From Symbiodinium natans (Eukaryota; Sar; Dinophyceae; Suessiales; Symbiodiniaceae): DNA of 64,000 bases. The notes below the pieces were generated by a model. The model made no database searches and had not been told where the DNA came from. It saw only the letters and a list, made by a program, of their open reading frames with translations. Of this stretch, positions 10,512 through 48,375 are shown one piece after another. The stretch spans positions 124,001 through 188,000 of the forward strand of contig CAJNDS010000095.1 of assembly GCA_905221605.1 (NCBI GenBank), read 5' to 3'. The number at the start of each line of letters is the position of its first letter. Within the stretch, counting starts at the first letter, position 1. The position numbers and the translations under genes are program-made.

Positions 10512-10579
10512 CGTGGTCCTGCAAATCCGTTTTTTGGACTAATAATTCTATTGTCCCACAACGGTTTTGCAGGACCACG
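10512..10579. repeat. Long hairpin in macrosatellite unit A
   Basis: Two 20-base arms pair with one mismatch. Just inside them TTGGAC and GTCCCA extend the stem with one mismatch, leaving a 16-base loop. The flanks repeat shorter variants of the same GTCCTGC words. It could be a small inverted-repeat element or a small-RNA precursor; the sequence alone does not decide. Confidence 0.85.
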
Positions 10580-13135: not shown

Positions 13136-13303
13136 GTGCATTTTCTTCTGAAGTTAAGACTTTTTGCATAGATTGAGGAGCCTTTTTTGGGGTCACAAGC
13201 AAGCATCATATTTGGAGTTGCAAATCGGCCCAGTACCAAAAACGGGACCGCTTTCTGGCCCAAAAAATGGGGGGCCCAAATCTGAATTTGTGTCCGGGCA
13301 GAG
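13136..13303 (+). other. Candidate 168-bp transposase intron
   Basis: Separates the HTH exon from the catalytic exon. The first frame stops at 13171 and the second has no ATG at its start, so splicing (or a degenerate junction) is needed. GTGCAT...GGGCAGAG fits GT-AG in phase 0. GTG occurs at both boundaries, so the exact splice point is ambiguous. Confidence 0.5.
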
Positions 13304-16042: not shown

Positions 16043-17070
16043 CGTGACACATCGCTACCATTGAGTACCATCTGCCCCCATCGCTTGCCAGTCCAGTTGG
16101 CTGAAGGTCTTTACCGTCACATTTCGATGCAGCAACAGCGGCTTCGACCTCTGCGAAAAATGTGCACACGCCCCGGCCCCAGTCCGTTCCCTCACAACAG
16201 ATCTGCTCGAATGCCTGCCCGTGTAGGCCTTTGCAGTACTTGTGCAATCTTTGTCAAATGTGTATGCCACGCTGAATCACGCTGATGTTGCCCGTCGATT
16301 TTGGCATCCGGGAGGCAACCCTCGGACATACAGCTGAAGATTCTATTCGCTCCGATTTGGAGGCCATCCTGTCAGCAACAGGATTATTCACGACATGTCA
16401 AACTTGCTTTTGGTGTTGTTTTCGCTTTCTGCTTGTTTTTGTATGGGTTTTGCCTATATTTTGAAGGTGTTTTCCTTTTGTGGGGTCAGGGCAACCATCC
16501 TAAACCTTAAAAGTCACTACACCCGACATGTCAAACTTGATTTTGGTGTTTCGGTTGCTCTCTGCTTGTTTTTGTATGGTTTTGCCTATGTTTTAAAGGT
16601 GTTTTCCTTTTTGGGGTCAGGGCAACCATCCTAAACCTTAAAAGTTACTACACCCAACATGTCAAACTTGATTTTGGTGTTTTTTTGCTCTCTGCTTGTT
16701 TTTGTATGGGTTTTGCCTATATTTTGAAGGTGTTTTCCTTTTGTGGGGTCAGGGCAACCATCCTAAACCTTAAAAGTCACTACACCCGACATGTCAAACT
16801 TGATTTTGGTGTTTCTGTTGCTCTCTGCTTGTTTTTGTATGGTTTTGCCTATGTTTTTAAAGGTGTTCTCCTTTTTGGGGTCAGGGCAACCATCCTAAAC
16901 CTTAAAAGTTACTACACCCAACATGTCAAACTTGATTTTGGTGTTTTTTTGCTCTCTGCTTGTTTTTGTATGGGTTTTGCCTATATTTTGAAGGTGTTTT
17001 CCTTTTGTGGGGTCAGGGCAACCATCCTAAACCCTAAAAGTCACTACGCCCGACATGTCAAACTTGATTG
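15738..17070. repeat. ~132-bp satellite array (unit A)
   Basis: Monomers recognised by [GA]ACATGTCAAACTTG start at 15738, 15871, 16003, 16392, 16525, 16656, 16788, 16920 and 17052, giving spacings of 131-133 bases apart from the 654-bp insertion. Each monomer ends CATCCTAAACCTTAAAAG. Two monomer types alternate (GTTTCTGTTGCTCTCTG versus GTTTTTTTGCTCTCTG), implying a 264-base higher-order repeat. Long hydrophobic open frames through it are repeat products. Confidence 0.95.
16043..16696. repeat. 654-bp internal duplication, second copy (unit A)
   Basis: Second copy of the preceding block, nearly identical in its unique segment. It merges into further 132-bp monomers on its right. Small differences (for example GATTTTGG versus GCTTTTGG after CATGTCAAACTT) show that the copies have begun to diverge. 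Confidence 0.93.
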
Positions 17071-18014
17071 TTTTTGTATGGTTTTGATTATATTTTGGAG
17101 GGTGTTTTCGCTTTTTGGTCCTACAGAGCAGGGCACAGTTTCTTTCACACTCTCTCACGCTCTCGTTTTCTCACACAATCTCGCGCGCGTAAGTGCCGCT
17201 CAAGGATGTGGGATAAACATGGACATGCTTGGGCATGCGCCTAAGTTTTTGAAGGTAAGGACGTGGAGACGGTGAGCAGAAGCATAGCGACGGTAAGGGC
17301 ATTTTGGCCACGTCGGAGAGGGCGCATTCTGTCTAGCTCTCCCTTTCTCTTTCACACAAGCTCTCGTTTGTCAATGTTTGTGAAGTGCCGCTGACGGATG
17401 TGAGACAAACATGTGCATACTTGGGCCTAAGTTTTTGAAGGTAAGGACGTGTAGACGGTGAGCAGAAGCATAGCTACGGGGGGGGACGCATGCTGGCAGT
17501 TCGGACAGGGCGCATTTTCTATCGCTCTCACACAATCTCTCCTTTCTCCATGTTCCTCACACGTGCGAAGTGCCGCTCAAGGATGTGAGACAAACATGGG
17601 CATGCTTCGGCCAAGTTCTTGGGTTGAGGCAAAACCACTGCATAATGGCGCCGCAATGCTTGTGCTTTGCGCGTCTCTGCACGTGACGTGTACAGAAACA
17701 GGTACATGAAATACATGTTGTTCGTTTTGCTCAGACGCCCCCCCCCCCCTTTGTCATGCTCATATCCCTGGTGCTCGTTTTGCTCAAACGCCCCCCTTTG
17801 TCATGCTCATGCTGCATCCCTGGTGCTCATTTTGCTCACACCCCACGAACAACCCAGCCCAGGGATGTTCCCTTGGAGTTCCGGGGCAGCCAGTCCCATT
17901 GTGGACGTTCCTTCGTCTCCTACCACCTCGTGGCCAAAGACCTGGAGACCACTAGAAGCTTGCTCTGGGCACGCGGCCCCGCGAAACGTTCCGGGAAAGC
18001 AGGCCTCGAAAACC

Positions 18015-18082
18015 CGTGGTCCTGCAAATCCGTTTTTTGGACTAATAATTCTATTGTCCCACAACGGTTTTGCAGGACCACG
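18015..18082. repeat. Long hairpin in macrosatellite unit B
   Basis: Identical arrangement to the hairpin of unit A, with both arms conserved. Confidence 0.85.
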
Positions 18083-20016
18083 CGTGTCATCTTGCAGTTC
18101 TCGTACGTGGCTTGTCCTGTGCGGTCCTGCGGTAATGGTTTCTGCAATGAGAGAAGGTAGACATTGGGTCCTGTCACGTTCCTGCGCAGCGTTTCGCAGG
18201 CTTGGACAGTGAGCCAATGATAGGGGAAGACTCGGCAACCATCTTTGGGCAAGCCGCTTTTGGGGGCAGAAATGGACGCCAGGAGGCAGCTCTGGCTCAA
18301 GAACCGATTGAAAAATACAAATAACTGTTTTTCCTTTCAAGTTGGAGCAGACAAAGGCTTTTTCCACATGCAACAATGTTTTGGAAGTGTTGTCCTTCGT
18401 TCTGAACGGCTCGGGCATGTCAAACTACCTAGATATCACCAACAGTTGCAGTGTTTTGTTGTGTTTTTCGCTTGTTTGGAGTTGCATGATTTTTGACATG
18501 TTTTCTGATTATTGAGCTTGCTTTGAACCGCGCCCGCTTTTTTTCAAGCATGTAGGGCGGTGGGAGGGGGCTTGGGCGGGAGGGCGGGCCGCGGCCGCGC
18601 GTGTGCTGAGGCCTGCGAATGCCCGCATGCTCTGGCTTGTCATGCCCAGCCAAGTCGGGCTCAACTGATGTGCGACAGGAAAACTGCTGCTTGCCATCGG
18701 GTGCACGCCAAATCCAGGCAACAGGCAGGCGACAACCTTGGATTTCCAGACTTGTTGCTCTCCGTCCTGTGCATCGTTCACATGTCCTGCATCCTTTCTT
18801 CCGAAGCTGTCAGCTATGTCTTCCATAAGCCTGAGTACATCAGATTGCTGTGAAGGCGCATGCCAATTGTACACATGTTCCAGTGGTTTGTGGTTGACAG
18901 TACGCGGGCAGCTTCCATGCTTCTGACAGATGCCAGCTGTTGCGTTCAAACGTGCACAGGCTTGAGCACCATCGTCTCGAAAAAGGCATGTTGCAAGCTC
19001 GATAGCTGTCTGGCTTTTACGCGTCCAGTTGGCTTCACGCCGCTTCTGGCACACCTAGCACAGTGTCACAGACAGCCTGTTGCGTGCAAGAGTGTTCATC
19101 TTTCCACTGCCCGGTTGTCCCCCAGAAGAAGACACCAGAAGAAGACTTTAGGGCTCAAGGGGCTAGGGGAAGCGGCTTTGCCTGCAAGTACCTGACGCCC
19201 CTCCTTTTTGTTTGCTGATGCTCACCATTGCTCAAACCCCTCTCCCCTTTTTTTGCTCCTATCCGCCGTGGCTCAGGACGGTGTTCATCTTGCTCGTGCA
19301 CCCCTCCCCCTTTTTTGCCGATGATGCTGCGCCTTGGGAAGCTTTCACCGGCGCACAGGCTGTCCGCTCGGCGTCGGGACGCTCATGTGCGGGTTACCCT
19401 GGGGGTGTTCCAGCTCCAAGTCAGGTCCAGGTTACTTTGACGTTCCTTTTGCACCGACGCAGAAGGTCGTGCCAAGTCGCTGCAAGACGGCGTTTGGCCA
19501 GATTTCCGCTGTTGAAGGGTGGGCACTTGCCCAAACTGGTAAGGGAGGTCTCTGGAGGGGGACTCTGTCATCTTAAGGCCGGCGGCAAGATGGTGGTTGG
19601 CCAGATCTCAACTGTTGTTGTTCCACGGTGCCTTACCAGCGGCCCCAGTTTGGGGTGCAGGAAAGCCAGGTATTTCCAAGTATGTTGCGGGTTACCGCTG
19701 CTGTATTGCCAAGTCGTTGTTGGTTCGCACATCGACCATGACGTAAGGATAGAGGGCCATTGTGTTGCCCTTGCCGAGATTGAATCGACCGTATTTGACT
19801 GTCGTTCGTCACAGCTTGTCGTGTGCATGTCTGGCCAAGTTCTTAGCGTCAGGAGTCAGCGACGTAGTTGGTAGTGGTGCAGGCAGACTGTCGACGAAAT
19901 CTTGCAAGAGTTACATCTCCAAGCCTCGTCTGACGTTTTCGCACTTCCGCAGTTTGCCTGCGCATGAGCCTCCAAAAGGAAGTGCTTTGCGGTGCTGAAG
20001 TGCTCTGTACCATGGA

Positions 20017-20634
20017 GTGCCGTTGCCAAGCAGCTGTCGCTTGTGTTCTCTGAAGCGGACCTGCCGCGAGCTGCAACAGCGCTTGCGAGAAGGACAGCGG
20101 CCGCTTGTCAGGGCAGCCCGAAAAGCCCACAGAGTGAGTTGGCCGTGCGGACTTTCCCCAAAGCAGCGGCATCAGGTCTTGTGTACCTATGTTCTCAGCG
20201 GTCACAATGCAATAGTGGCCATGCAGCACGCCCGACAACTACAGAGGCGTGCAGCGTCTGACGACACGCTGCCAAGCATTACGTTTGTCCAGAATCTTTA
20301 CCGGGAAGCTGCGGCTTCTGATGTTCATGCCTGTACAGATCCGCAGACGGCGGCCCAAAAACATGCTTCTCGAGAAGCTCACGTTTTCTTGGCAGAGGCC
20401 AACCTTTTTCGCTGGGTTCGGCAGCAGAACTTTCGTTGTCACTCGGCTCCGACCTCGGAGGCGGCCCTCTTCGAGTTTCGACGAAGATTGGGTGATCATG
20501 CTGGCTGCCGGGCTGCCACAAACCGTGGCGGCCGGAAGTGGTTGCAGCGATGGTGTAAACGTTGGGATGTGAGTAGAGGAACCGTGCCAGTGCGTGTGGC
20601 TGTGGAGCCTGCGCGCTTGCCCCAGAAGGCTTGG
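20017..20634 (+). CDS. Transposase exon 1 (HTH region), unit B
   Basis: Same conserved HTH-bearing segment as in unit A, but a 4-base deletion just upstream of CGCTTGTGTTCTC brings a different ATG into frame, so the first few residues differ from unit A. From RLCSLKRTCREL onward the two proteins agree. This supports a coding start, or splice acceptor, at or after the indel. Confidence 0.58.
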
Positions 20635-20802
20635 GTGCATTTTCTTCTGAAGTTAAGACTTTTTGCATAGATTGAGGAGCCTTTTTTGGGGTCACAAGCA
20701 AGCATCATATTTGGAGTTGCAAATCGGCCCAGTACCAAAAACGGGACCGCTTTCTGGCCCAAAAAATGGGGGGCCCAAATCTGAATTTGTGTCCGGGCAG
20801 AG

Positions 20803-21690
20803 GTGGCGGTGTTCTTCCAATCGCTCAGCTTCCTTCGACATGCAAGTGCACCCCGACGTCTTTTGCATCTCAACCTTGATGAGACATCTGTAGCTCTGAC
20901 GCCGCACCCTCTTTGTGGCTTGGTGGTCCAACGCCGCCACTGGGGAGCAGACGTGGAGGGCCCACGTCTGCCGGTTCGCAAGGGTGACTTGCGGACATTT
21001 GTGAGCTATGTGGCAGTGATATCAGACAACGACGAGCTTCAGCAGAGCTTGCCACATTTCGTCATCGGGAATAAGTCCGTGTTTACACTGGGCTTGATGC
21101 AGACAGTGGCCGCAGAATGCCGCCCGGGGACACATGTCTGGCGAACAGTCTCCTCATGGAACTCCACATCACTGCTTTTGGCAATGCTGGACCTGATTTC
21201 GCTAGCGTTGGACGGTTGGAGATGGTTGCTGGAACCGGTTCTCACCCTCGATGTGGCTCCATGCCACCTTTCCAAAGAAGTCTTTCTACGGGCGTGCGAG
21301 GTTGACATCAAATTGAATTTCGTGCCGGCCGGCGCAACATTCCTGCTGCAGCCGCTCGACGTGCGCGGCTTCTTCTCTTTCAAGTGGTGGCTCCGAACGG
21401 AGTACCAAATCTTACGACAGCTTGGTGACGGACAAGTCAGCAAGTTGGACTGGGTACGTTTGCTCATGAGAGCGCGGGAAGACTTTTGGTCCCGCAGATC
21501 GTGGCGCAAATCCTTTAGTTTGACAGGGTGTCTGGGCGAAGCTCTGCCTTGTCTGTCCAAGAAGCTGCAAGCTTTTGAAATAGACCCTCAAGCAGCGGGT
21601 CGTTCTCCACCTTCGAAAGAAGCAAGCCAATGCATATGGCCGCGAAATCGCGCCATGGGCTATGCGTATGACCTTTTGTTTAAAGAGTAA
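20803..21690 (+). CDS. DDE_1 (Tigger/pogo-like) transposase catalytic exon, unit B
   Basis: Encodes the same catalytic protein as unit A, with D26, D150 and D186 intact and no stop or frameshift. The only base difference I noticed in this exon is synonymous. It is separated from its HTH exon by the same 168-base intervening segment. It is either a recent copy or maintained by homogenisation of the whole macrosatellite. Confidence 0.82.
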   Translation: MAVFFQSLSFLRHASAPRRLLHLNLDETSVALTPHPLCGLVVQRRHWGADVEGPRLPVRKGDLRTFVSYVAVISDNDELQQSLPHFVIGNKSVFTLGLMQTVAAECRPGTHVWRTVSSWNSTSLLLAMLDLISLALDGWRWLLEPVLTLDVAPCHLSKEVFLRACEVDIKLNFVPAGATFLLQPLDVRGFFSFKWWLRTEYQILRQLGDGQVSKLDWVRLLMRAREDFWSRRSWRKSFSLTGCLGEALPCLSKKLQAFEIDPQAAGRSPPSKEASQCIWPRNRAMGYAYDLLFKE

Positions 21691-22887
21691 AGCTCGCCGT
21701 GGGACCGGAAGCGCTCAATGCTTGAAGCTCCAACGTCCGACAAGCGGGATGTGTGATACTGCTTGGGGAAGGTGCAACATGGTGGAAAGGACCATGCGTT
21801 CTTGGTGCTGGAAGTAGGGCCCAGCGTGTGCAATGTTTCTGAGCGGGAACGCGTGCTTTGCTTCGTGTGTCCTCAAGTGGGTGGAAAGAGAGACGTGTGC
21901 ATGCGCCACGGTAGTTGCTGCAGCCATGAGTGCCGAAGCTGCTGCTGGCGATGTTGTACGAGATCTCAAAAGGCAGCGGCAAGAGCTGAAGGTGCCAAGA
22001 GACTTTTCTGTCCTATGCGCGCACGCTGCCCATACACGTGCCTTTTTTGCCAGGACGAACTGAAGCGCGCCAGCAAAGCCCTCAAGAACGAAGCTGCTAT
22101 CCTCAAGAAGAGCACTTCTTTTTGCGTAGCCTGCTCTGATGCAGTGTGACAGTGTGCGAAGCAGTTTTCCTTTAGGTCAGAAAGCGCCGCCGCCTCCTGC
22201 GAAAAGCAGGCGATTTGGACGACGACTCACTGATCTGGCTACTGCGCAGACGGCAAAACGCAGATGCCGGACCACGTCAAGAAGCGCAACGTCCACGCGA
22301 CAATGCTGTTGGTGAAGAGCGTCAAGAGACCTGAGCTGTGAACGGTTTAGCGAAGCTAAGTCCAAGCCACCCTGCTTGAGATATGTTTTTGCTGTGTCTG
22401 CGTTAGCTATCGCCAGTTGGCAGATGGCCAGCAGCGTCAAGTTGTGCGTTCTACAGAATGCAAGCACGCCTATGCATGTGGTCACGGAACGTGCCATGTG
22501 TAACGATCTCCTTGAACCTTGAAGGCTTGACCTCAGCCAACCAAACATGCTGATCGCCCAGATGTTGATCGAATGTGGTTGCTTGTTTCTCTTTGGCTCT
22601 TGCTTACAGTGCACGTTGTTGTTCTTATCCGAAACCACACGACAGCTGCCCAAGAAGCTTCCAGCGGTTGGGTGCGCGGCGGTCGCGATTTCACCGGTGG
22701 ATGCCGCAGTGGTCGCGCACTTGGAGAGATGCGGACACCATGGTGCTGTTTCTGTTCTCATGCCACGACTTTCAAAGATGCGCTTGGCAGATCATGTTCG
22801 CAGGCCAGTTGCAATGGGAAGAGTCTTTGCCAAGTCCCGCAAGCCGTCCGGGCTTCTGCCATGACATTTGGTTTCTAGATGCATCAT

Positions 22888-24195
22888 CGTGACACATCGC
22901 TACCATTGAGTACCATCTGCCCCCATCGCTTGCCAGTCCAGTTGGCTGAAGGTCTTTACCGTCACATTTCGATGCAGCAACAGCGGCTTCGACCTCTGCG
23001 AAAAATGTGCACACGCCCCGGCCCCAGTCCGTTCCCTCACAACAGATCTGCTCGAATGCCTGCCCGTGTAGGCCTTTGCAGTACTTGTGCAATCTTTGTC
23101 AAATGTGTATGCCACGCTGAATCACGCTGATGTTGCCCGTCGATTTTGGCATCCGGGAGGCAACCCTCGGACATACAGCTGAAGATTCTATTCGCTCCGA
23201 TTTGGAGGCCATCCTGTCAGCAACAGGATTATTCACGACATGTCAAACTTGATTTTGGTGTTGTTTTCGCTATCTGCTTGTTTTTGTATGGGTTTTGCCT
23301 ATATTTTGAAGGTGTTTTCCTTTTTTGGGGTCAGGGCAACCATCCTAAACCTTAAAAGTCACTACGCCCGACATGTCAAACTTGATTTTGGTGTTTCTGT
23401 TGCTCTCTGCTTGTTTTTGTATGGTTTTGCCTATGTTTTTAAAGGTGTTTTCCTTTTTGGGGTCAGGGCAGCCATCCTAAACCTTAAAAGTTACTACACC
23501 CAACATGTCAAACTTGATTTTGGTGTTGTTTTCGCTTTCTTCGTGACACATCGCTACCATTGAGTACCATCTGCCCCCATCGCTTGCCAGTCCAGTTGGC
23601 TGAAGGTCTTTACCGTCACATTTCGATGCAGCAACAGCGGCTTCGACCTCTGCGAAAAATGTGCACACGCCCCGGCCCCAGTCCGTTCCCTCACAACAGA
23701 TCTGCTCGAATGCCTGCCCGTGTAGGCCTTTGCAGTACTTGTGCAATCTTTGTCAAATGTGTATGCCACGCTGAATCACGCTGATGTTGCCCGTCGATTT
23801 TGGCATCCGGGAGGCAACCCTCGGACATACAGCTGAAGATTCTATTCGCTCCGATTTGGAGGCCATCCTGTCAGCAACAGGATTATTCACGACATGTCAA
23901 ACTTGCTTTTGGTGTTGTTTTCGCTTTCTGCTTGTTTTTGTATGGGTTTTGCCTATATTTTGAAGGTGTTTTCCTTTTGTGGGGTCAGGGCAACCATCCT
24001 AAACCTTAAAAGTCACTACACCCGACATGTCAAACTTGATTTTGGTGTTTCGGTTGCTCTCTGCTTGTTTTTGTATGGTTTTGCCTATGTTTTAAAGGTG
24101 TTTTCCTTTTTGGGGTCAGGGCAACCATCCTAAACCTTAAAAGTTACTACACCCAACATGTCAAACTTGATTTTGGTGTTTTTTTGCTCTCTGCT
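22888..24195. repeat. 654-bp internal duplication, both copies (unit B)
   Basis: Copies at 22888-23541 and 23542-24195, matching those of unit A in position and sequence. The duplication therefore predates the copying of the 7.5-kb unit. Confidence 0.92.
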
Positions 24196-24569
24196 TGTTT
24201 TTGTATGGGTTTTGCCTATATTTTGAAGGTGTTTTCCTTTTGTGGGGTCAGGGCAACCATCCTAAACCTTAAAAGTCACTACACCCGACATGTCAAACTT
24301 GATTTTGGTGTTTCTGTTGCTCTCTGCTTGTTTTTGTATGGTTTTGCCTATGTTTTTAAAGGTGTTCTCCTTTTTGGGGTCAGGGCAACCATCCTAAACC
24401 TTAAAAGTTACTACACCCAACATGTCAAACTTGATTTTGGTGTTTTTTTGCTCTCTGCTTGTTTTTGTATGGGTTTTGCCTATATTTTGAAGGTGTTTTC
24501 CTTTTGTGGGGTCAGGGCAACCATCCTAAACCCTAAAAGTCACTACGCCCGACATGTCAAACTTGATTG
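23237..24569. repeat. ~132-bp satellite array (unit B)
   Basis: Monomers start at 23237, 23370, 23502, 23891, 24024, 24155, 24287, 24419 and 24551, the same number and order as in unit A. Confidence 0.94.
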
Positions 24570-27202
24570 TTTTTGTATGGTTTTGATTATATTTTGGAGG
24601 GTGTTTTCGCTTTTTGGTCCTACAGAGCAGGGCACAGTTTCTTTCACACTCTCTCACGCTCTCGTTTTCTCACACAATCTCGCGCGCTTAAGTGCCGCTC
24701 AAGGATGTGGGATAAACATGGACATGCTTGGGCATGCGCCTAAGTTTTTGAAGGTAAGGACGTGGAGACGGTGAGCAGAAGCATAGCGACGGTAAGGGCA
24801 TTTTGGCCACGTCGGAGAGGGCGCATTCTGTCTAGCTCTCCCTTTCTCTTTCACACAAGCTCTCGTTTGTCAATGTTTGTGAAGTGCCGCTGACGGATGT
24901 GAGACAAACATGTGCATACTTGGGCCTAAGTTTTTGAAGGTAAGGACGTGTAGACGGTGAGCAGAAGCATAGCTACGGGGGGGGACGCATGCTGGCAGTT
25001 CGGACAGGGCGCATTTTCTATCGCTCTCACACAATCTCTCCTTTCTCCATGTTCCTCACACGTGCGAAGTGCCGCTCAAGGATGTGAGACAAACATGGGC
25101 ATGCTTCGGCCAAGTTCTTGGGTTGAGGCAAAACCACTGCATAATGGCGCCGCAATGCTTGTGCTTTGCGCGTCTCTGCACGTGACGTGTACAGAAACAG
25201 GTACATGAAATACATGTTGTTCGTTTTGCTCAGACGCCCCCCCCCCCCTTTGTCATGCTCATATCCCTGGTGCTCGTTTTGCTCAAACGCCCCCCTTTGT
25301 CATGCTCATGCTGCATCCCTGGTGCTCATTTTGCTCACACCCCACGAACAACCCAGCCCAGGGATGTTCCCTTGGAGTTCCGGGGCAGCCAGTCCCATTG
25401 TGGACGTTCCTTCGTCTCCTACCACCTCGTGGCCAAAGACCTGGAGACCACTAGAAGCTTGCTCTGGGCACGCGGCCCCGCGAAACGTTCCGGGAAAGCA
25501 GGCCTCGAAAACCCGTGGTCCTGCAAATCCGTTTTTTGGACTAATAATTCTATTGTCCCACAACGGTTTTGCAGGACCACGCGTGTCATCTTGCAGTTCT
25601 CGTACGTGGCTTGTCCTGTGCGGTCCTGCGGTAATGGTTTCTGCAATGAGAGAAGGTAGACATTGGGTCCTGTCACGTTCCTGCGCAGCGTTTCGCAGGC
25701 TTGGACAGTGAGCCAATGATAGGGGAAGACTCGGCAACCATCTTTGGGCAAGCCGCTTTTGGGGGCAGAAATGGACGCCAGGAGGCAGCTCTGGCTCAAG
25801 AACCGATTGAAAAATACAAATAACTGTTTTTCCTTTCAAGTTGGAGCAGACAAAGGCTTTTTCCACATGCAACAATGTTTTGGAAGTGTTGTCCTTCGTT
25901 CTGAACGGCTCGGGCATGTCAAACTACCTAGATATCACCAACAGTTGCAGTGTTTTGTTGTGTTTTTCGCTTGTTTGGAGTTGCATGATTTTTGACATGT
26001 TTTCTGATTATTGAGCTTGCTTTGAACCGCGCCCGCTTTTTTTCAAGCATGTAGGGCGGTGGGAGGGGGCTTGGGCGGGAGGGCGGGCCGCGGCCGCGCG
26101 TGTGCTGAGGCCTGCGAATGCCCGCATGCTCTGGCTTGTCATGCCCAGCCAAGTCGGGCTCAACTGATGTGCGACAGGAAAACTGCTGCTTGCCATCGGG
26201 TGCACGCCAAATCCAGGCAACAGGCAGGCGACAACCTTGGATTTCCAGACTTGTTGCTCTCCGTCCTGTGCATCGTTCACATGTCCTGCATCCTTTCTTC
26301 CGAAGCTGTCAGCTATGTCTTCCATAAGCCTGAGTACATCAGATTGCTGTGAAGGCGCATGCCAATTGTACACATGTTCCAGTGGTTTGTGGTTGACAGT
26401 ACGCGGGCAGCTTCCATGCTTCTGACAGATGCCAGCTGTTGCGTTCAAACGTGCACAGGCTTGAGCACCATCGTCTCGAAAAAGGCATGTTGCAAGCTCG
26501 ATAGCTGTCTGGCTTTTACGCGTCCAGTTGGCTTCACGCCGCTTCTGGCACACCTAGCACAGTGTCACAGACAGCCTGTTGCGTGCAAGAGTGTTCATCT
26601 TTCCACTGCCCGGTTGTCCCCCAGAAGAAGACACCAGAAGAAGACTTTAGGGCTCAAGGGGCTAGGGGAAGCGGCTTTGCCTGCAAGTACCTGACGCCCC
26701 TCCTTTTTGTTTGCTGATGCTCACCATTGCTCAAACCCCTCTCCCCTTTTTTTGCTCCTATCCGCCGTGGCTCAGGACGGTGTTCATCTTGCTCGTGCAC
26801 CCCTCCCCCTTTTTTTGCCGATGATGCTGCGCCTTGGGAAGCTTTCACCGGCGCACAGGCTGTCCGCTCGGCGTCGGGACGCTCATGTGCGGGTTACCCT
26901 GGGGGTGTTCCAGCTCCAAGTCAGGTCCAGGTTACTTTGACGTTCTTGCACCGACGCAGAAGGTCGTGCCAAGTCGCTGCAAGACGGCGTTTGGCCAGAT
27001 TTCCGCTGTTGAAGGGTGGGCACTTGCCCAAACTGGTAAGGGAGGTCTCTGGAGGGGGACTCTGTCATCTTAAGGCCGGCGGCAAGATGGTGGTTGGCCA
27101 GATCTCAACTGTTGTTGTTCCACGGTGCCTTACCAGCGGCCCCAGTTTGGGGTGCAGGAAAGCCAGGTATTTCCAAGTATGTTGCGGGTTACCGCTGCTG
27201 TA
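24542..27202. repeat. 7.5-kb macrosatellite, truncated unit C
   Basis: Matches the first ~2.66 kb of units A and B and then stops abruptly after CCGCTGCTGTA. Beyond that point the sequence is unrelated. The truncation removes the transposase and satellite array. It carries a small deletion near 26946 (CGTTCTTGCACC instead of CGTTCCTTTTGCACC) not seen in A or B. Confidence 0.95.
25514..25581. repeat. Long hairpin in macrosatellite unit C
   Basis: Third copy of the 20-base-arm hairpin, with both arms conserved even though this unit is truncated further on. Confidence 0.85.
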
Positions 27203-28734: not shown

Positions 28735-29314
28735 GTTTTTGCCCAATACGCTATTTAAAGTGAGTGTGCAGTGTGTAGAAACTTCGTTCTGAAGCTGAGT
28801 TTAAGCTCACAAGAGAGAATTCGTTTGGTTTGTGCACTTCGTGACTTTTGACTCAAGTGGCTCTGAAAAAGAGAGAGCTGTCCGCACTTGTGTGAGATTC
28901 GTGCTTTCAAGAAAAGGTACCAGAGGGACCTTTTTTTTCACGTGGTAGCGGAGCTTGTGCCTTGTGGTTCGAACAATCAAGGCAACTTTGAAACCAGTGT
29001 TTTTCTGGTTTTAAATGTTTTTCATGTTGAAATTACAAATAATTTACTTAACAGGGCATCTTCAATTTGCTCAAGTTTGGTCTTGCCTTGCATGTGTCAA
29101 GCCAGACAGCTGAAAAACACACCCAAAGTTTTTTTGAGGTTATGTTTCTTTGCTGGTAGCTTTGTTCAGCCTTTGCAGGTGCAAACAGGAAAAATGCACG
29201 TCAAGCAAGCAGCAGAAAAAAAAATGGGCTGAGTTTGAAGTCTTGGCTTTGACAAGATGGGCTTGCGTCGACCCAATTGCAGACCGCGACGGCGACGCGT
29301 GGGTGGTGGTGGCC

Positions 29315-29390
29315 GTGGACATGAGTCATGACTCAATGACTTATGACTCATGACTATGACATGACTTATGACTCATAACTTATGACCCCA
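29315..29390. repeat. TGACTCA-like short tandem array
   Basis: Repeated ATGACTCATGACT / TATGACT words create overlapping TGACTCA or TGAGTCA palindromes. Similar clusters occur at about 30235-30330, 31868-31940 and 32780-32870, once or twice per duplication copy. Confidence 0.75.
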
Positions 29391-30536
29391 TGTCTTTGCA
29401 CTTTCGTTTGATGTTGGTTTGATGGTAGGTGCGCCGTCTCATCCCTCTTTGAATCTCATTGCTCTAGCTTACTGGGGCGCTGTTGCGTCGAAGAAGCAGT
29501 GGAGGAAAAAAAATGACTTATGACTTCCACAAAATACATTCTGTTTTTTTTTGAACGCCGCGTTTTTTCTAATGTTTTTTAAGATTTTCAATATGTTAAA
29601 TTTTGATCCAAAGCAAGCCGGTTGGCTCAGTTTCAAAAAGTTGGTATGGATCATCTTGTTCATTTCGTTGACAATGTTTCTCAAACAAGGAAAAATTGAA
29701 CAAAAATTAATTAACGTTTTTTTTTGATTTTGTTTTTCAGGCAAGTTTGTTCAGAGCGATTTTGTTTCTAAACAAAGGCATTCCAAAATTATTATTCATA
29801 TTGCAGACTTTGAAATGCTTCGAAACCAGTTTTTTTCTGTGTTTTAAACGTTTTTTCATGTTTGAAATTTTAAAAACAATTTGCTTTAAAAAACGTAGCA
29901 AAAGAGCATCTCCAATTTGCATCTCAAGTATGGTGTGGCCTGCATGTGTCAAGCCAGGACAGCTGAAAAACACAGACCAAGTTCTTTGAAGTCCTGTTTC
30001 ATTGCTGGTGGTTTTGTTTCAGCCTTTTCTGCAAACAGGAAAAAATGCACGTCAAGCCAAACAGCAGAAAAGAAAGATGGGCTGAGTTTGAAGTCTTGGC
30101 TGGATTCGACGCGAACAAAGCTGAAAGGAAACCAAGGCAGTTTTTCATTGTTCATGACCCGTGTTTGTGGCCGATGGGTTGCGGCGGCCGCAATGACTCA
30201 CGTGACTGCCGTGACTGTGGCTGTGACTGTGACTGATTCATGGTTCCTGATTCATGATGATCTCATGATCTCATGACTCATGACTCATGACTCGTGGCTC
30301 ATCATGATCTCATGTCATGAGTCATGACTGAATGAATGATTGATGACTGATGATTGATGATTCATACTTCACAATGCATAATGATTCATGATGCGATGCG
30401 ATGATGCGATTATGATTGATGCCAATGCCAGGCAATGCGGCGGCAATGCCAGGCCAGGACCGCGTGCCAGCACCAGGACCGCCGGGAAGCCGGACTGCCA
30501 AGATGCCAGGGCTCAGGACTCAGGACCTGGCAGGAT

Positions 30537-30554
30537 GATGATGACGACGATGAT

Positions 30555-30597
<43 letters not shown>

Positions 30598-30640
30598 ACA
30601 ATGACACGATGTGATGATATATGATATGCTATGATCTGAT

Positions 30641-30682
<42 letters not shown>

Positions 30683-30716
30683 GTATGATGATGATGATGA
30701 TGATGCTGCTGATGAT
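30537..30716. repeat. GAT trinucleotide microsatellites, copy 1
   Basis: Two GAT tracts separated by about 40 bases of mixed ATGATAT sequence. The poly-Asp frame on the plus strand and poly-His/poly-Ile frames on the minus strand come from the repeat. Confidence 0.95.
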
Positions 30717-30947
30717 CTTCTGCTGAGGATCTGCTGACGCTGCTGGGCAATATGAGACTCTTGATGAGACTGCCGACAGGTTTGTTAATCTGGCCCTATG
30801 GCCCTAGAACACCATGCCGCGCCCGAAATTTCGGCCATACTTAGCTCCGTCGTAGGTAATGGGGCCATGTAATCCATGTGGCCCCCTGATTTGATGCCAA
30901 GCAGAGAGTGCTTCGCACCCCCATTTTGCCGTCAGGCAAAAAACCCA

Positions 30948-33095
30948 AGTGGTCTTAGCAGGAATTTACCCACACGGAATATCTGAAAGCTGCATATTTT
31001 TAGAAATTTGAATTTTTGTTTTTGAAAACCATGAAAAATGTGTTTTTTTTTTCGTTCGTTGAAAACTTTTTGTTTGCTCCCATTTTACCTGGCAAGATAG
31101 CATGTAGGAATTCCAAAATGATTTGTTTTTAAACCAACCATTCCACAGAATGCATTCTAGATTTTTTGGACGCCGCGTTTCTTACAATGTTTTTTGAAAA
31201 TTTTCAAAATTTAAAATTTTGATCCAAACCAAGCCGGTTGGCTTAGTTGCAAAAAGTTAGTAAGGCTCATTTTGTTTTCAGATCATTTCGTTAGCAATGT
31301 TTCTCAAACAAGGAAAAGTTGAAAAAAAACATCAATTGATGTTTTAAATTGTGCTCAAGCGATTTTGTTTCTGAACCAAAATTAGTATTCACAACACTGC
31401 AGACTTTGAAATGCTTAAAAACCAGTGTTTCCTGTTTTAAATGTTTTTTTCATTTTTGTAAATTTTGAAAACAATCTGCTTTGACCCAAGGCAACTTTGA
31501 AACCAGTGTTTTTCTGGTTTTAAATGTTTTTCATGTTGGAAATTACAAAAATAATTTGCCTTGACAGCGACCCAAGGCAGCTTGAGTACGCCCGTACTCT
31601 TGCTCTGCCGCAAGCTCTGTCCTTGGGTGGTCTTGCCTTGCATGTGTTAAGCCAGACAGCTGAAAAACACAGCCAAAGTTTTTTTAAGGTCATGTTTCTT
31701 TGCTGGTAGCTTTGTTCAGCCTTTGCAGGTGCAAACAGGAAAAATGCACGTCAAGTCAAGCAGCAGAAAAAAAAATGGGCTAAGTTTGAAGTCTTGGCTT
31801 TGAAAAGATGGGCTGCGACAACCCAATTGCAGACCGCGACGGCGACGCGTGGGTGGTGGTGGCCGTGGACATGAGTCATGACTCAATGACTTATGACTCA
31901 TGACTATGACATGACTTATGACTCATAACTTATGACTCCCATGTCTTTGCACTTTCGTTTAATGTTGGTTTGATGGTAGGTGCGCCGTCTCATCCCTCTT
32001 TGAATCTCATTGCTCTAGCTTACTGGGGCGCTGTTGCGTCGAAGAAGCAGTGGAGGAAAAAAATGACTTATGACTTCCACAAAATACATTCTGTTTTTTT
32101 TGAACGCCGCGTTTTTTCTAATGTTTTTTTAAGATTTTCAATATGTTAAATTTTGATCCAAAGCAAGCCGGTTGGCTCAGTTTCAAAAAGTTAGTATGGA
32201 TCATCTTGTTCATTTCGTTGACAATGTTTCTCAAACAAGGAAAAATTGAACAAAAATTAATTAACGTTTTTTTTTGATTTTGTTTTTCAGGCAAGTTTGT
32301 TCAGAGCGATTTTGTTTCTAAACAAGGCATTCCAAAATTATTATTCATATTGCAGACTTTGAAATGCTTCGAAACCAGTTTTTTTCTGTGTTTTAAACGT
32401 TTTTTCATGTTTGAAATTTTAAAAACAATTTGCTTTAAAAAACGTAGCAAAAGAGCATCTCCAATTTGCATCTCAAGTATGGTGTGGCCTGCATGTGTCA
32501 AGCCAGGACAGCTGAAAAACACAGACCAAGTTCTTTGAAGTCCTGTTTCATTGCTGGTGGTTTTGTTTCAGCCTTTTCTGCAAACAGGAAAAAATGCACG
32601 TCAAGCCAAACAGCAGAAAAGAAAGATGGGCTGAGTTTGAAGTCTTGGCTGGATTCGACGCGAACAAAGCTGAAAGGAAACCAAGGCAGTTTTTCATTGT
32701 TCATGACCCGTGTTTGTGGCCGATGGGTTGCGGCGGCCGCAATGACTCACGTGACTGCCGTGACTGTGGCTGTGACTGTGACTGATTCATGGTTCCTGAT
32801 TCATGATGATCTCATGACTCGTGACTCATGACTCGTGGCTCATCATGATCTCATGTCATGAGTCATGACTGAATGAATGATTGATGACTGATGATTGATG
32901 ATTCATACTTCACAATGCATAATGATTCATGATGCGATGCGATGATGCGATTATGATTGATGCCAATGCCAGGCAATGCGGCGGCAATGCCAGGCCAGGA
33001 CCGCGTGCCAGCACCAGGACCGCCGGGAAGCCGGACTGCCAAGATGCCAGGGCTCAGGACTCAGGACCTGGCAGGATGATGATGACGACGATGAT

Positions 33096-33138
<43 letters not shown>

Positions 33139-33181
33139 ACAATGACACGATGTGATGATATATGATATGCTATGATCTGAT

Positions 33182-33241
<60 letters not shown>

Positions 33242-33471
33242 GTATGATGATGATGATGATCTGCTGGGCAATATGAGACTCTTGATGAGACTGCCGACAG
33301 GTTTGTTAATCTGGCCCTATGGCCCTAGAACACCATGCCGCGCCCGAAATTTCGGCCATACTTAGCTCCGTCGTAGGTAATGGGGCCATGTAATCCATGT
33401 GGCCCCCTGATTTGATGCCAAGCAGAGAGTGCTTCGCACCCCCATTTTGCCGTCAGGCAAAAAACCCAAGT
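30948..33471. repeat. ~2.55-kb tandem duplication, copy 2
   Basis: Second copy of the 28.4-30.9 kb block. It holds an insert near 31100-31560 not seen in copy 1, including a forward copy of the AT-rich repeat that is inverted at 27.3-27.5 kb. After about 31620 it tracks copy 1 closely. Confidence 0.9.
33078..33262. repeat. GAT trinucleotide microsatellites, copy 2
   Basis: Same pair of GAT tracts as in copy 1, with a clearly longer second tract and loss of the GCTGCT interruption. Repeat-length change has occurred since the duplication. Confidence 0.95.
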
Positions 33472-43859: not shown

Positions 43860-44970
43860 GGTCTGGTCGATATCTGTGTTTGAGTGGGAGGTCCTCGTCC
43901 CAGTGGGCGCAGCCTTTACTTTGAGGACTTGTAGCCTTGGCATTCGTATCCTATGGAAGATTCTCAATGCAGTTGCATGGTGTCTGTCACAGGAACATGA
44001 GTCCGACCATTCCAGCTAAGCTGCTGGCAGTTGTTCCGCGGTAGTCCTCGAGCATTGCCTCTGAATCAGTCAATGCACTTGTATCTTTGTAGCGTTTCAC
44101 AGTAGACATTGGAAGCAGGCAAGAGCACGGCAAGAGCAAGCTCGCTCGCAAAAGCTGCACATTTTCTAGCAGCACCGCAGCATCTGTGAAGACGAGTCTT
44201 AAGTAGCGTGTCTGTGAACGGAGCATGAATCCCTTGCCTGCCCGGGGCTGTGGCAGACAGCCTGATATCTATATTGTGGTGTAGGTAGGGCTACTGCAGT
44301 TCTGCAGCTCCTAGCTGCAAAATTAATTAGACCGTGTGACTCTGGGCTTCTGCGCAACAATGCCGTGCAACCGTGCAACATGCTATGGTGTGGTATGCTT
44401 CTGGGTAGCACTTGCCAAGACCTTGCGGGTTGGGCACTTGCTGTCCTGGGAAGCTGAGTGGCCTGAGTTCAAGCAAAACTGACGGTGCCAGGAAAGATGG
44501 AACGTATCCAGAAATAAGCCGACCAAGATGCAAACTAAATCGCAGTTTCGGCTGTTTATCCATCTGCCCAGAGTGTTCACAACCTATAGATGCTCGGATG
44601 CCAGCAACGGCTTCGATACGGAGTAGCCTCGCCAAGCGGGGAGCCCAAGAGCAAATTTCAAGAAGAAGAATCTGAGAAGAAGAGGAGGCGGGAGGAAGAG
44701 TACTGAGCACAGTGTTTTTTGAGAAAGACACTCTCTCTGCGGGCTTCACGCTTTTCTCTCTCCTTCGAACTTGTTTGCCCATTTGTGCTCCGAGGAGTTG
44801 GTTTTGGCTTTCGCCACCATCGCCACCACCTCGGCTTCCCTCACGTTCCTTCCAGGAGAGAGAACTCAGAGACGGGGGGGAAACTGTGCGACTTTCTTTT
44901 AGCTCTCTCATCATTCGCTGTTTCGTTCCTTATATCATCCCGTGTGTGACATGTGCTTTCTTGTCCGTTC
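43860..44970. other. No recognisable gene
   Basis: The longest frame is 195 codons on the minus strand at 44327-44914, with Ser/Arg/Gly-rich composition and no motif. No supported feature. Confidence 0.45.
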
Positions 44971-45112
44971 TCTCCTCTCTCTCCCCTCGCTCTCTCCTCT
45001 CGCGCTCTCCTCTAACTCTCTCTTCTCGCTCTCTCCTCTCGCTCTCTCCTCTCGCTCTCTCCTCTCGCTCTCGCTCTCTCCTCTCGCTCTCTCCTCTATC
45101 CTCCTCTCCTCC
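44971..45112. repeat. CTCTC(G/T) pyrimidine-rich repeat
   Basis: Repeats of CTCTCCTCTCGCTCTCTCCT. It ends next to TTTCTGCAG at 45118-45126, a possible splice acceptor. It lies about 400 bases upstream of the first plastid-protein gene. Confidence 0.9.
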
Positions 45113-45521
45113 GCTTCTTTCTGCAGGATCGGACATGCCATCTCATTCTCTGATGTTCCTTCGCCGACCTCAAGACTGGGTGCCAGTGCCCAGTTGCCCG
45201 CCCCATGTTCAAAGTTCAACGGTCACCCGCAAATTCGGTGAGGTGGCTTTGCCTTGTTGTTGGCACTCACTGGTAGTGCGGTTCCTGGATTCGGAAGCAT
45301 AGAGGAAAGATACTTCCAGAAGCATGCGTGCAAGGACGTCGAGCAAGGCATGTGAGCTGTGCAGGAGGAGAAGGAGGTGCCATGCATCACACAGGCATGT
45401 TGTGATGCAAATGTGTGCATGCGTCATACTCATATGGTACTTTTGACGTTAGTCCCTGCATCTGCAGCTTTTCTTCAGCTTGCGAGTGTCTGCGCTGCCA
45501 GCTAGCCGCTAGCCCTTCACA

Positions 45522-46091
45522 ATGGCACGTGTGTCCTCCTCGAGCGGTCGTGTGGCCATCGCGGCACTTGCAGGCCTTTGCCTTTGGGCGGCTGGCACTG
45601 CGTTCGTCCCGTCTAGCGGAACCAAGGGGCTGCGGGGCTTGGAGGGCTCCTCGCACGCTGGCTATGCTCCATTCCCCGGCGCGCAGCAGATTGCGGGAGA
45701 GGTCGATGCGCCAAGCAGCCTGACTTCGGGCGTGCAGGCAGTGCTTCTGGCAGCGGTGGTTGGCTTGATGGTGGGAGTGGCCCCAGTCCGTGCCGAAGAG
45801 GAATCTGTGGATCTGTCACAGATCGGCACAGCGAGCAAGAACGCAGGCCTCAACACATCCTCCCGCAAGGCCAAGCGAACGACCGCACTGAAGAAGGAGG
45901 CGAAGAAGGTGACGACCAGCACCGATGATTCCGGCAAGAAGAAGCGTGTGATCATCTCCCCTGCAGATGAGCTGGACGAGGATGAGCTGTCTCCGCTGCG
46001 GCCCAACCCTCCGCTGCTGATTCTGATCTTTGCCACCCCCGTGACCATCTACCTGACCTTCTACATTCTGGGATCCCTCAATATCATCTGA
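45522..46091 (+). CDS. Plastid-targeted single-TM protein, tandem copy 1
   Basis: Complete, intronless, 189 codons. Residues 1-27 form a signal peptide (basic start, then VAIAALAGLCLWAAGTA) followed at 28-30 by FVP, the Phe-motif of dinoflagellate plastid transit peptides. Residues 31-70 are a Ser/Gly-rich transit region. Residues 71-88 are a second hydrophobic segment ending PVRA-EEE, like a thylakoid-processing site. The predicted mature part (92-189) is charged and Lys/Thr-rich, then has a DELDEDEL acidic patch and a C-terminal membrane helix at about 164-185 (LLILIFATPVTIYLTFYILG). The leader implies transport across the outer plastid membranes and insertion in the thylakoid. The protein itself is not recognised; a small photosystem or cytochrome-complex subunit is a guess. 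Residue 57 is Ile here and Met in copies 2 and 3. CTGCATCTGCAGCTTTTCTTCAG about 45 bases upstream of the ATG is a plausible spliced-leader acceptor. Confidence 0.92.
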   Translation: MARVSSSSGRVAIAALAGLCLWAAGTAFVPSSGTKGLRGLEGSSHAGYAPFPGAQQIAGEVDAPSSLTSGVQAVLLAAVVGLMVGVAPVRAEEESVDLSQIGTASKNAGLNTSSRKAKRTTALKKEAKKVTTSTDDSGKKKRVIISPADELDEDELSPLRPNPPLLILIFATPVTIYLTFYILGSLNII

Positions 46092-46379
46092 GCTGCTTGC
46101 AAGCAGAGTTTTCAACTGCAGAAGGCGGTCGGAGAGCCGAAAACAAGCACATGCTCCCTCGGCTGTAAGCTTACCACTGTGAACGCTGGAAAACCACTAA
46201 ACCTTTCCAAATCCGATGTACTTGCCAGATGGAAACTGAAAGCGCGCTAAAGACCCCGCAAGTAGTGTTTGTGTCAGCTTGTGCCACATTGATGGACTAT
46301 TGCCAGCTTGTTCGCTGCTTTGAGGTCATATTAAATAGGGTAGTCCTCGCTCCGCACTTCACACAAGTCGCTCTTCGCA
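46092..46379. other. Spacer between copies 1 and 2
   Basis: 288 bases with no detectable similarity to the second spacer or to the flanks of the other copies. Homology between copies stops within a few bases of the start and stop codons. It must hold the polyadenylation and trans-splicing signals; a pyrimidine-rich stretch with AG near 46362-46368 is the best acceptor candidate. Confidence 0.7.
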
Positions 46380-46949
46380 ATGGCACGTGTGTCCTCCTCG
46401 AGCGGTCGTGTGGCCATCGCGGCACTTGCAGGCCTTTGCCTTTGGGCGGCTGGCACTGCATTCGTCCCGTCTAGCGGAACCAAGGGGCTGCGGGGCTTGG
46501 AGGGCTCCTCGCACGCTGGCTATGCTCCATTCCCCGGCGCGCAGCAGATGGCGGGAGAGGTCGATGCGCCAAGCAGCCTGACTTCCGGCGTGCAGGCAGT
46601 GCTTCTGGCAGCGGTGGTTGGCTTGATGGTGGGAGTGGCCCCAGTCCGTGCCGAAGAGGAATCTGTGGATCTGTCACAGATCGGCACAGCGAGCAAGAAC
46701 GCAGGCCTCAACACATCCTCCCGCAAGGCCAAGCGAACGACCGCACTGAAGAAGGAGGCGAAGAAGGTGACGACCAGCACCGATGATTCCGGCAAGAAGA
46801 AGCGTGTGATCATCTCCCCTGCAGATGAGCTGGACGAGGATGAGCTGTCTCCACTGCGGCCCAACCCTCCGCTGCTGATTCTGATCTTTGCCACCCCCGT
46901 GACCATCTACCTGACCTTCTACATTCTGGGATCCCTCAATATCATCTGA
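46380..46949 (+). CDS. Plastid-targeted single-TM protein, tandem copy 2
   Basis: Same 189-residue protein as copy 1 with Ile57 replaced by Met. By eye it differs from copy 1 at four of 570 bases (three synonymous) and from copy 3 at two (both synonymous). No intron, same orientation, 858 bases from start to start. The near-absence of synonymous differences beside unrelated spacers points to recent duplication or gene conversion confined to the coding sequence. Confidence 0.92.
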   Translation: MARVSSSSGRVAIAALAGLCLWAAGTAFVPSSGTKGLRGLEGSSHAGYAPFPGAQQMAGEVDAPSSLTSGVQAVLLAAVVGLMVGVAPVRAEEESVDLSQIGTASKNAGLNTSSRKAKRTTALKKEAKKVTTSTDDSGKKKRVIISPADELDEDELSPLRPNPPLLILIFATPVTIYLTFYILGSLNII

Positions 46950-47331
46950 GCCATGATCGAGATTGTGGCATTATGAAGTTTCCCTGACTCAGCTAGCTGT
47001 GAGGATATGTATGTTGTCTGGCTGTGAAGCGAAGTTCTCCTGGAAGAACCCTGAAGAGTGCTGCGGCTGCGGAAATGCTTTGCCCAGCCTGCTCTTTCTG
47101 TTGTCTCAGCCCTTTCGATAATGATCCCCAGAACTGGCACTGCAGTTGTCTGGCATTGTTCACCCTTCTCGCACGTGCTGTGAGAGCCATGACATGTTTC
47201 CATTCTCAATATGTAGGCGCAAACCCGACCAGTATTCATGGCTTGCATGTTGTAACCGTGAAGTGCCGCTTCAGCGTTTGGATGGAAGGTAGGTAGTCAG
47301 CTGTGGTGCTAATCTGTTTCAAGCACCTACA
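46950..47331. other. Spacer between copies 2 and 3
   Basis: 382 bases unlike the first spacer. The last bases before the ATG (CTAATCTGTTTCAAG then CACCTACA) give a short pyrimidine-rich tract with AG, a candidate trans-splice acceptor. No gene seen. Confidence 0.65.
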
Positions 47332-47901
47332 ATGGCACGTGTGTCCTCCTCGAGCGGTCGTGTGGCCATCGCGGCACTTGCAGGCCTTTGCCTTTGGGCG
47401 GCTGGCACTGCATTCGTCCCGTCTAGCGGAACCAAGGGGCTGCGGGGCTTGGAGGGCTCCTCGCACGCTGGCTATGCTCCATTCCCCGGCGCGCAGCAGA
47501 TGGCGGGAGAGGTCGATGCGCCAAGCAGCCTGACTTCCGGCGTGCAGGCAGTGCTTCTGGCAGCGGTGGTTGGCTTGATGGTGGGAGTGGCCCCAGTCCG
47601 TGCCGAAGAGGAATCTGTGGATCTGTCACAGATCGGCACAGCGAGCAAGAACGCAGGCCTCAACACATCCTCCCGCAAGGCCAAGCGAACGACCGCACTG
47701 AAGAAGGAGGCGAAGAAGGTGACGACCAGCACCGATGATTCCGGCAAGAAGAAGCGTGTGATCATCTCCCCTGCAGATGAGCTGGACGAGGATGAGCTGT
47801 CTCCGCTGCGGCCCAACCCTCCGCTGCTGATTCTGATCTTTGCCACCCCCGTGACCATCTACCTGACCTTCTACATTCTGGGATCCCTCAACATCATCTG
47901 A
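47332..47901 (+). CDS. Plastid-targeted single-TM protein, tandem copy 3
   Basis: Encodes exactly the same protein as copy 2. Downstream of the stop, copies 2 and 3 share only TGAGCCATG before diverging. It starts 952 bases after the start of copy 2. All three share the unusual arrangement of a thylakoid-type leader followed by a mature domain with one C-terminal membrane helix. Confidence 0.92.
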   Translation: MARVSSSSGRVAIAALAGLCLWAAGTAFVPSSGTKGLRGLEGSSHAGYAPFPGAQQMAGEVDAPSSLTSGVQAVLLAAVVGLMVGVAPVRAEEESVDLSQIGTASKNAGLNTSSRKAKRTTALKKEAKKVTTSTDDSGKKKRVIISPADELDEDELSPLRPNPPLLILIFATPVTIYLTFYILGSLNII

Positions 47902-48175
47902 GCCATGCGTGAACTGCTAGGTCATTTTTGCAGCTTGGGCTTTAACGGTTTTCCTCGCATATCGTGCTGGTCAGGATGCCGGAAAATGATGTAGGTCCTG
48001 TACTTGGTACTTGCACGGAGCAGGAATCCAACTGTGTCCTTCGCATCAGGTGCTTCGGAAAGGAAGCAAAGGCGAGTGTACTGGTGTGTTCGAAGGTGTT
48101 CGAAGGTATTCGACGGTGTTCGACGGTGTTGCAACCCTTGCGTCATCTTGCGTCTCATGTTTGGCTCATGCTCAG

Positions 48176-48264
48176 GCTTCCAAAGTACGCAGTGAGGGTT
48201 CTTGCCGGCATTGTCCTTGGCGAGATCATGGGCCCCGCGACCTTCGCAGGCCATGAATCCGCAG
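48176..48264 (+). CDS. Exon of a Cys-rich protein gene (upstream of the Cys exon)
   Basis: An 89-base exon between a GGCTCATGCTCAG acceptor and a GTATGT donor. It reads LPKYAVRVLAGIVLGEIMG then PATFAGHESA, leaving one base that joins in phase to the next exon. The 111-base intron after it is canonical GT-AG. Upstream exons must exist but were not identified. The hydrophobic part could be a signal or anchor segment. No family recognised. Confidence 0.5.
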
Positions 48265-48375
48265 GTATGTCAGTTGCCCTGATCTTGACTCGAACTGTGC
48301 AGGGGGCTGGCCCTTCCTGATTGCATACACCTGTGCCCCTCGACTGCGTGTGCCTAACAGTCTAATCCACATCAG

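Follow-up and report, generated by a model that had tools for sequence, protein, structure and literature searches.

In a 64-kb stretch of the Symbiodinium natans genome (contig CAJNDS010000095.1, positions 124,001 to 188,000; hereafter the window, with position 1 as its first nucleotide), three head-to-tail copies of one gene are nearly identical from start codon to stop codon, and the likeness ends within a few nucleotides of these limits. The copies are probably old tandem duplicates that were homogenised by gene conversion wherever purifying selection had preserved homology. The three reading frames are intact, the flanks align at background level, no further copy was found in the assembly, and the same pattern of identity, together with an internal clock, recurs in a second gene family of this genome.

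Structure and divergence of the three copies

The copies lie on the forward strand at 45522..46091, 46380..46949 and 47332..47901, and in the open reading frames of the window each appears as an intact, intronless single exon of 570 nucleotides (nt) with 189 codons. They are separated by spacers of 288 nt (46092..46379) and 382 nt (46950..47331), neither of which shows convincing kinship with the other spacer or with the outer flanks. An initial sequence-only reading of the window had given the coordinates, copy number, lengths and spacer sizes correctly, as well as the two to four, mostly silent, differences per 570 nt: copies 1 and 2 differ at four positions, copies 1 and 3 at four, and copies 2 and 3 at two. 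The five variable sites (nt 81, 171, 207, 474 and 561) all occupy third codon positions, and four of the five are silent; nt 171 exchanges Ile and Met. Under random mutation, the probability of at least four silent sites among five is about 0.02, and that of five third positions among five is 0.004. Purifying selection appears to act on the copies, because the remaining differences avoid first and second codon positions.

Silent divergence (dS) among the copies is 0.013–0.020. When codons are drawn independently from the gene's own codon usage, about 96 of the 189 would be expected to match, whereas 185, 185 and 187 are identical in the three pairs; the identity therefore arose by copying, which upholds the earlier argument that selection on the protein cannot account for it. 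Selection on silent sites themselves, through codon choice or RNA structure, would also keep coding DNA alike, and some amino acids are indeed written with a single codon (Lys 11 of 11, Gln 4 of 4). However, codon use is otherwise mixed, far fewer matches (about 96) would be expected from independent draws, and in the neighbouring exon of the LHC-Rieske family described below the silent sites have drifted far, so that this explanation is hardly tenable.

The likeness might also be technical, if short-read polishing or consensus mixing had erased the differences between diverged copies. Hybrid assembly is able to level out repeats, and the published genome of S. natans was assembled from short reads together with long ones (PMC8045281; this and the other papers cited below are represented by excerpts of their text). 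On the other hand, such an artefact could only inflate the likeness of already close copies, not create it; five variable sites survive, all at third positions; the distinct spacers should anchor each copy; and no gap lies near the array, the only Ns of the window being at 9440-9539. We regard an assembly or polishing artefact as quite improbable.

Limits of homology around the copies

Identity drops from more than 99% to background within 10 nt of the ATG and 6 nt of the stop codon. By ungapped extension, the matches reach 7, 3 and 2 nt before the ATG and 2, 2 and 6 nt after the stop; blastn extends the pair of copies 1 and 2 to position -10 of the ATG and that of copies 2 and 3 to position +6 of the stop. 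The 5' overhang of copies 1 and 2 (45512..45521, forward strand, partner 46370-46379) matches at 8 of 10 nt according to the blastn edge and the per-base match line, and the 3' overhang of copies 2 and 3 (46950..46955, forward strand, partner 47902-47907) at 6 of 6 nt. The claim that homology ends exactly at the start and stop codons thus stands in placing the edges at the coding limits; the word "exactly" gives way to 2–10 nt on the 5' side and 2–6 nt on the 3' side that still match.

The upstream flank, the two spacers and the downstream flank were compared in all six pairs. In local alignment, the observed scores were reached by 33 to 197 of 200 shuffles, and five pairs (all but upstream-downstream) were level with unrelated window DNA. 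Edge-anchored global scores over 250 nt count against treating the flanks as background, lying 1.8–2.4 standard deviations (SD) above simple shuffles in four of the six pairs, and the gap-permissive identities of 0.71–0.83 were likewise slightly raised (background 0.708, SD 0.046, maximum 0.817 of 200). Therefore, a stricter null of unrelated window DNA was used, against which the six anchored 250-nt scores rank at 0.05–0.67; the two lowest ranks in 18 global tests, 0.003 and 0.007, both belong to the 5' flank of copies 1 and 2. Residual homology in the flanks is not convincing, and the earlier description of spacers and outer flanks as unalignable is borne out, since they score like unrelated DNA. 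A trace of old homology may still persist in the 5' flank of copies 1 and 2 and, if present, would favour an old duplication. The repeat unit does not include the spacer, as it would after a recent tandem duplication. A CT-rich simple repeat (CTCTCCTCTCG type) occupies 44970-45110, approximately 400 nt upstream of copy 1.

Edges of this kind could also be produced by retroposition, in which mRNA-derived copies without untranslated regions (UTRs) are reinserted beside the parent gene. In all three copies, the best 21-nt match to the dinoflagellate spliced leader within 300 nt upstream ends 8–12 nt before the ATG, with 12, 10 and 12 of 21 positions identical; compared with ATGs that have an AG upstream, the joint P is 0.0007, a post hoc value. 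However, a leader relict no older than the 1–2% silent divergence would be expected almost intact, and not at 48–57% identity, and comparable matches occur elsewhere: when the 250 nt upstream were scanned, six copies from other arrays (C1801, C1946, C2001 and C1166) reached 11–14 of 21 and three from C2112 reached 11. Exact GGCTCAAG is found in the window at 42903 and at 51476, with none between. Near the copies there is no run of five A, the only run of at least five A or T in 45301-48300 being TTTTT at 47925, and the copies have no 3' UTR in common, as homology is over 2–6 nt after the stop. Retroposition would moreover require three independent complementary DNAs (cDNAs), each starting at the ATG and ending at the stop. 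The check for leader and poly-A relicts proposed with the sequence-only reading has thus returned a post hoc hint of a leader and no poly-A, and mRNA reinsertion, one of the two options that reading had offered, is very improbable for copies so little diverged at silent sites.

An internal clock in the LHC-Rieske family

The other option, gene conversion limited to coding sequence, gains support from a second coding-bounded family, which comprises three LHC-Rieske fusion genes plus two Rieske-only genes, located at C2354 (X1 and X2) and C2069. Pfam assignments were checked for one fusion gene and one Rieske-only gene. The five copies have in common a 498-nt module that is approximately 98–99% identical, contains no replacement difference, and ends 0–1 nt past the stop in 10 of 10 pairs. 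The LHC-Rieske fusions and the stand-alone Rieske genes (L061, L063 and L064) differ in their N-terminal parts. Another LHC-Rieske-like locus, C1733 (85–94%), was read and excluded from the edge counts.

The long exon of X1, X2 and C2069 is 99.1–99.8% identical, with 0 nonsynonymous changes. Between X1 and X2, this exon of 1.2 kb has 99.8% identity up to the stop codon and 2 differences in 281 silent sites, whereas a 48-nt block that precedes it differs at 5 of 9.0 silent sites (Fisher P = 1.6e-7), both blocks encoding the identical 16 residues ELATLPKHMQPVDMNK. The block is read as the end of the preceding exon. It is separated from the long exon by 54 and 132 nt, of which blastn matches the first 17 only, and this stretch is interpreted as an intron. 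In C1733, the same 16 residues continue directly into the long-exon sequence, which supports reading block and long exon as parts of one gene. With the exons read in this way, X1 and X2 are old genes whose long exon was overwritten recently and whose short exon escaped. This is the pattern predicted by conversion confined to surviving homology, and the clock speaks strongly against recent duplication and against a spliced-mRNA origin for this pair; X1 and X2 both retain a non-coding stretch between the same exons and are thus not spliced copies.

The template of conversion is a separate matter. A reverse-transcribed mRNA of one copy could recombine with the others and replace the matching coding part only, which would give the same edges at the code limits; the window genes are intronless, as suits a cDNA template, and frequent retroposition of mRNAs has been reported for dinoflagellates (PMC12014239). 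No positive trace of a cDNA template was seen, and in the LHC-Rieske family the short exon block, which would adjoin the long exon in a cDNA, has not been homogenised; yet a cDNA tract would also halt at the intervening stretch. The data do not separate a cDNA from a DNA template, and we consider cDNA-templated conversion unlikely. A broader form of the idea, to which we likewise assign a small chance, is that the uniformity of highly expressed dinoflagellate genes is maintained by their own abundant mRNA, from which cDNA is made and used as the repair template. If so, homogenisation would halt at the limits of the code, would follow expression and not distance, and would also act between contigs, as in the five LHC-Rieske and Rieske copies.

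Simulation of conversion under selection

Conversion combined with selection was simulated with three copies whose flanks evolve neutrally by substitutions and indels and whose coding sequence (CDS) is selected; conversion requires 25 identical nt to begin and is halted by heterology. With too few conversions in the first grid, only one of eight settings gave any pairs with coding-only homology at more than 0.99 identity (6% of its pairs); later grids used more. In the main grid, for which 15 of 16 planned settings were completed with six runs each, median CDS identity was 98.4–99.3%, flank identity 0.03–0.10 and median overhang 0 nt (90th percentile 0–1). Silent differences were 0.028–0.047 at the CDS edges and 0–0.009 in the core. 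The differences of C2069 are in line with this edge prediction: 6 of 10 relative to X1, and 5 of 10 relative to X2, fall in the last 110 of 1206 nt.

Three tract-stop rules were then compared in 25 runs each. Under the conservative rule, 5.7 of 6.9 variable sites lie near the CDS edges. Edge crowding was absent from 0, 6 and 18 of the 25 runs under the three rules, the 18 belonging to the rule by which tracts run up to heterology; that rule gave an overhang of 1 nt (90th percentile 6), near the 2–7 nt seen in the window. Coding-only edges with 0–6 nt of overhang can thus arise in a workable simulation without any codon-aware process. Together, the LHC-Rieske clock and the simulation lend support to conversion limited to the coding sequence.

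Proposed mechanism

In the proposed course of events, a tandem duplication would have occurred long ago in the dinoflagellate nuclear genome. Since then, substitutions and indels would have changed the non-coding DNA beyond recognition, whereas the coding sequence stayed alignable under purifying selection. Ectopic gene conversion between the copies depends on homology; it would now start and proceed only within the coding sequence, and its tracts would stop where homology stops, within a few bases of the start and stop codons. Repeated conversion would overwrite silent differences within these limits. The window array shows two features expected of such coding-limited concerted evolution: silent sites are nearly identical, and flanks are not homogenised. 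By analogy with the LHC-Rieske family, we infer an equal age for the window array, conversion as the process that copied its sequence, and genomic DNA as the template.

Several points weigh against this explanation. In the window, only one of the five variable sites falls in the outer 60 + 60 nt, unlike in the simulation under the conservative rule. The rule by which tracts run up to heterology was added only after this mismatch had been seen; its runs average 1.9 variable sites, so that absence of edge crowding is easily obtained, and its CDS identity of 0.998 exceeds the observed 0.993–0.997. The window array contains no intron or short exon that could serve as a clock, and an age much beyond the silent divergence is seen only in the C2354 pair, where the 48-nt block was chosen by eye from a 68-nt blastn match (85.3%). 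Finally, all comparisons were made within this one assembly.

Genomic setting and encoded protein

The window is part of a 759.4-Mb assembly of 2543 contigs, which was searched for further copies, as had been proposed with the sequence-only reading. No copy beyond the three was found: in the DNA search, all three candidates scored were the known copies, and 10 candidates in the protein search gave three matches at E ≤ 10. The assembly contains 205 exact copies of the 21-nt dinoflagellate spliced leader (104 + 101) and none of a reversed control; the host is therefore a dinoflagellate. For comparison, the published assembly of S. natans CCMP2548 is described as holding 244 putative leader sequences (PMC8045281). 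The window copies are nuclear genes, lying on a 232-kb contig of a spliced-leader host.

The encoded protein has three hydrophobic segments, at approximately residues 9–31, 64–93 and 162–189, two of them N-terminal. It also contains FVP and AxA motifs, which we take to be signs of plastid import. The segments and motifs suggest a thylakoid membrane protein imported via a complex plastid. Pfam returned no family match for the whole protein or for its two end pieces, and sequence matches in the PDB were at chance level (best E 0.88; 2–2.9 in a further search). A likeness between the C-terminal helix and small subunits of cytochrome b6f or of the photosystems was considered and is not claimed. 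Where the copies had been called plastid genes, the genes themselves are nuclear, and the plastid is their predicted destination, for a protein that lacks a Pfam family match.

Other arrays and repeats

For comparison, 21 other arrays of the same genome were picked by hand, not at random, among the matches listed for the Pfam models of PCP, ATP-synt_C, chlorophyll-binding, GAPDH C-terminal and ferredoxin; scoring covered 150 of 194 PCP candidates and 150 of 824 LHC candidates. With the window included, homology runs well past the code in 18 of the 22 arrays, one is intermediate, and three, among them the window array, are coding-bounded. Coding-only homology is thus a minority state among the arrays examined. 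In many of the 18, the whole unit is alike at 94–99%. The expectation of the sequence-only reading that tandem duplication would carry the spacer along accordingly fits young arrays, as in these 18, and fails to cover an old duplication with eroded flanks, which is what the window is consistent with.

The 18 arrays with long homology encode PCP (C1846, C198, C1739, C1736, C1789 and C1728, with PCP coding limits not drawn), the ATP synthase c-subunit (C133), LHC proteins (C1828, C1336, C1946, C2001, C2450 and C1801), GAPDH (C1885, C180 and C423) and ferredoxin-type proteins (C2241 and C25). The copies of C1336 are 8–18 kb apart, and in C1828 and C180 the spacer is common to the copies in part only. 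The intermediate case is the LHC array C1166, in which copy 1 has 64–82 nt past the stop and 20–21 nt before the ATG in common with the others.

The remaining coding-bounded array, the LHC array C2112, has three copies with homology running 0, 0 and 13 nt past the stop and 43–59 nt of 5' flank kept. Per 186 silent sites its genes differ at 1–2, and the stop codon varies between TAA and TGA. The common block (L054 230-296, 1663-1725 and 3193-3260) opens 43–59 nt (ungapped) before the ATG, and in copies 1 and 3 it opens at GCAG; this is perhaps a trans-splice acceptor, in which case the 5' limit may be the edge of the 5' UTR. In the GAPDH array C1885 (L070 373 and 2402), the unit of two adjacent copies opens 1 nt before the ATG but continues for approximately 555 nt beyond the stop, so that the coding-edge pattern is present on one side only. 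GAPDH copies on separate contigs are 89–97% identical, and several pairs, which were left uncounted, are alike only over most of the coding part. In C133 (L048 788-852 and 2642-2751), telomere-like CCCTAAA runs follow the pair of ATP synthase c-subunit genes, and a matching stretch precedes the pair.

Two further repeats occur in the window itself. A block of approximately 7.5 kb stands in tandem at 9540-27202, where 9540-19705 matches 17043-27202 at 99.8% identity including non-coding DNA; it begins directly after the 100-N gap (9440-9539) and may stem either from a genuine recent duplication or from the way the sequence was assembled at the gap. In addition, two direct repeats of approximately 2 kb (28978-30950 and 31487-33471), 95.2% identical, lie where the GC content of the window is lowest.

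Comparison with known systems

Several practical consequences follow for arrays of this type. Their copies are not datable by silent sites, coding-region probes or reads hardly separate them, and only the flanks do; UTRs and regulation may differ from copy to copy. The sister case at C2354, with its built-in clock, makes the template (DNA or cDNA) and the tract rules testable.

Leishmania uses spliced-leader trans-splicing too. In the beta-tubulin loci of Leishmania major, coding sequences are similar and UTRs unalignable, as in the window, and ectopic gene conversion has been invoked; 15 nt are common after the stop and then nothing, and 225 nt are common before the start. Unlike in the window, this long 5' flank is kept, the loci lie on different chromosomes, and spacers within arrays are conserved (PMC1533823). 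The window copies, in contrast to these loci, are 288–382 nt apart in one array.

For yeast ribosomal protein paralogues, conversion is reportedly the explanation as well. These duplicated genes have conserved coding sequences and divergent UTRs and introns, like the window copies, but occur as paralogue pairs and not as a tandem array (PMC5755908). Mammalian HSPA1A and HSPA1B are a tandem pair kept alike by gene conversion and purifying selection, again as in the window, although they are an animal gene pair; in humans, polymorphisms of the pair fall mostly in UTRs or, inside the code, on silent positions (PMC5865164). In Trypanosoma brucei arrays, non-coding DNA more variable than coding DNA is reported, in the text cited, for histones only (PMC1855330).

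Among dinoflagellates, the PCP arrays of Polarella glacialis (PMC7245778) and the actin genes of Amphidinium carterae (PMC2488372) resemble the window array in their head-to-tail arrangement and few silent differences within an array, and they are highly expressed, intron-poor genes; however, their spacers are conserved (approximately 95% in PCP, and to a high degree within each actin cluster), whereas those of the window cannot be aligned. Gene conversion has been proposed as one route to dinoflagellate arrays (PMC11453091) and offered as a speculation for high-copy genes (PMC2488372). It has also been proposed as a force in the Symbiodinium LHC family, where the proposal concerns shuffling of gene units and not homology that ends at the stop codon (PMC4351107). 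A search of the titles and abstract openings of open-licence literature, outside which some key papers lie, found no dinoflagellate array described as having coding-bounded homology. Elsewhere, as in Leishmania beta-tubulin, such coding-limited homogenisation by conversion has precedent; with the window array, dinoflagellates, whose described arrays have conserved spacers in the excerpts cited, gain a clear case of coding-limited homogenisation.

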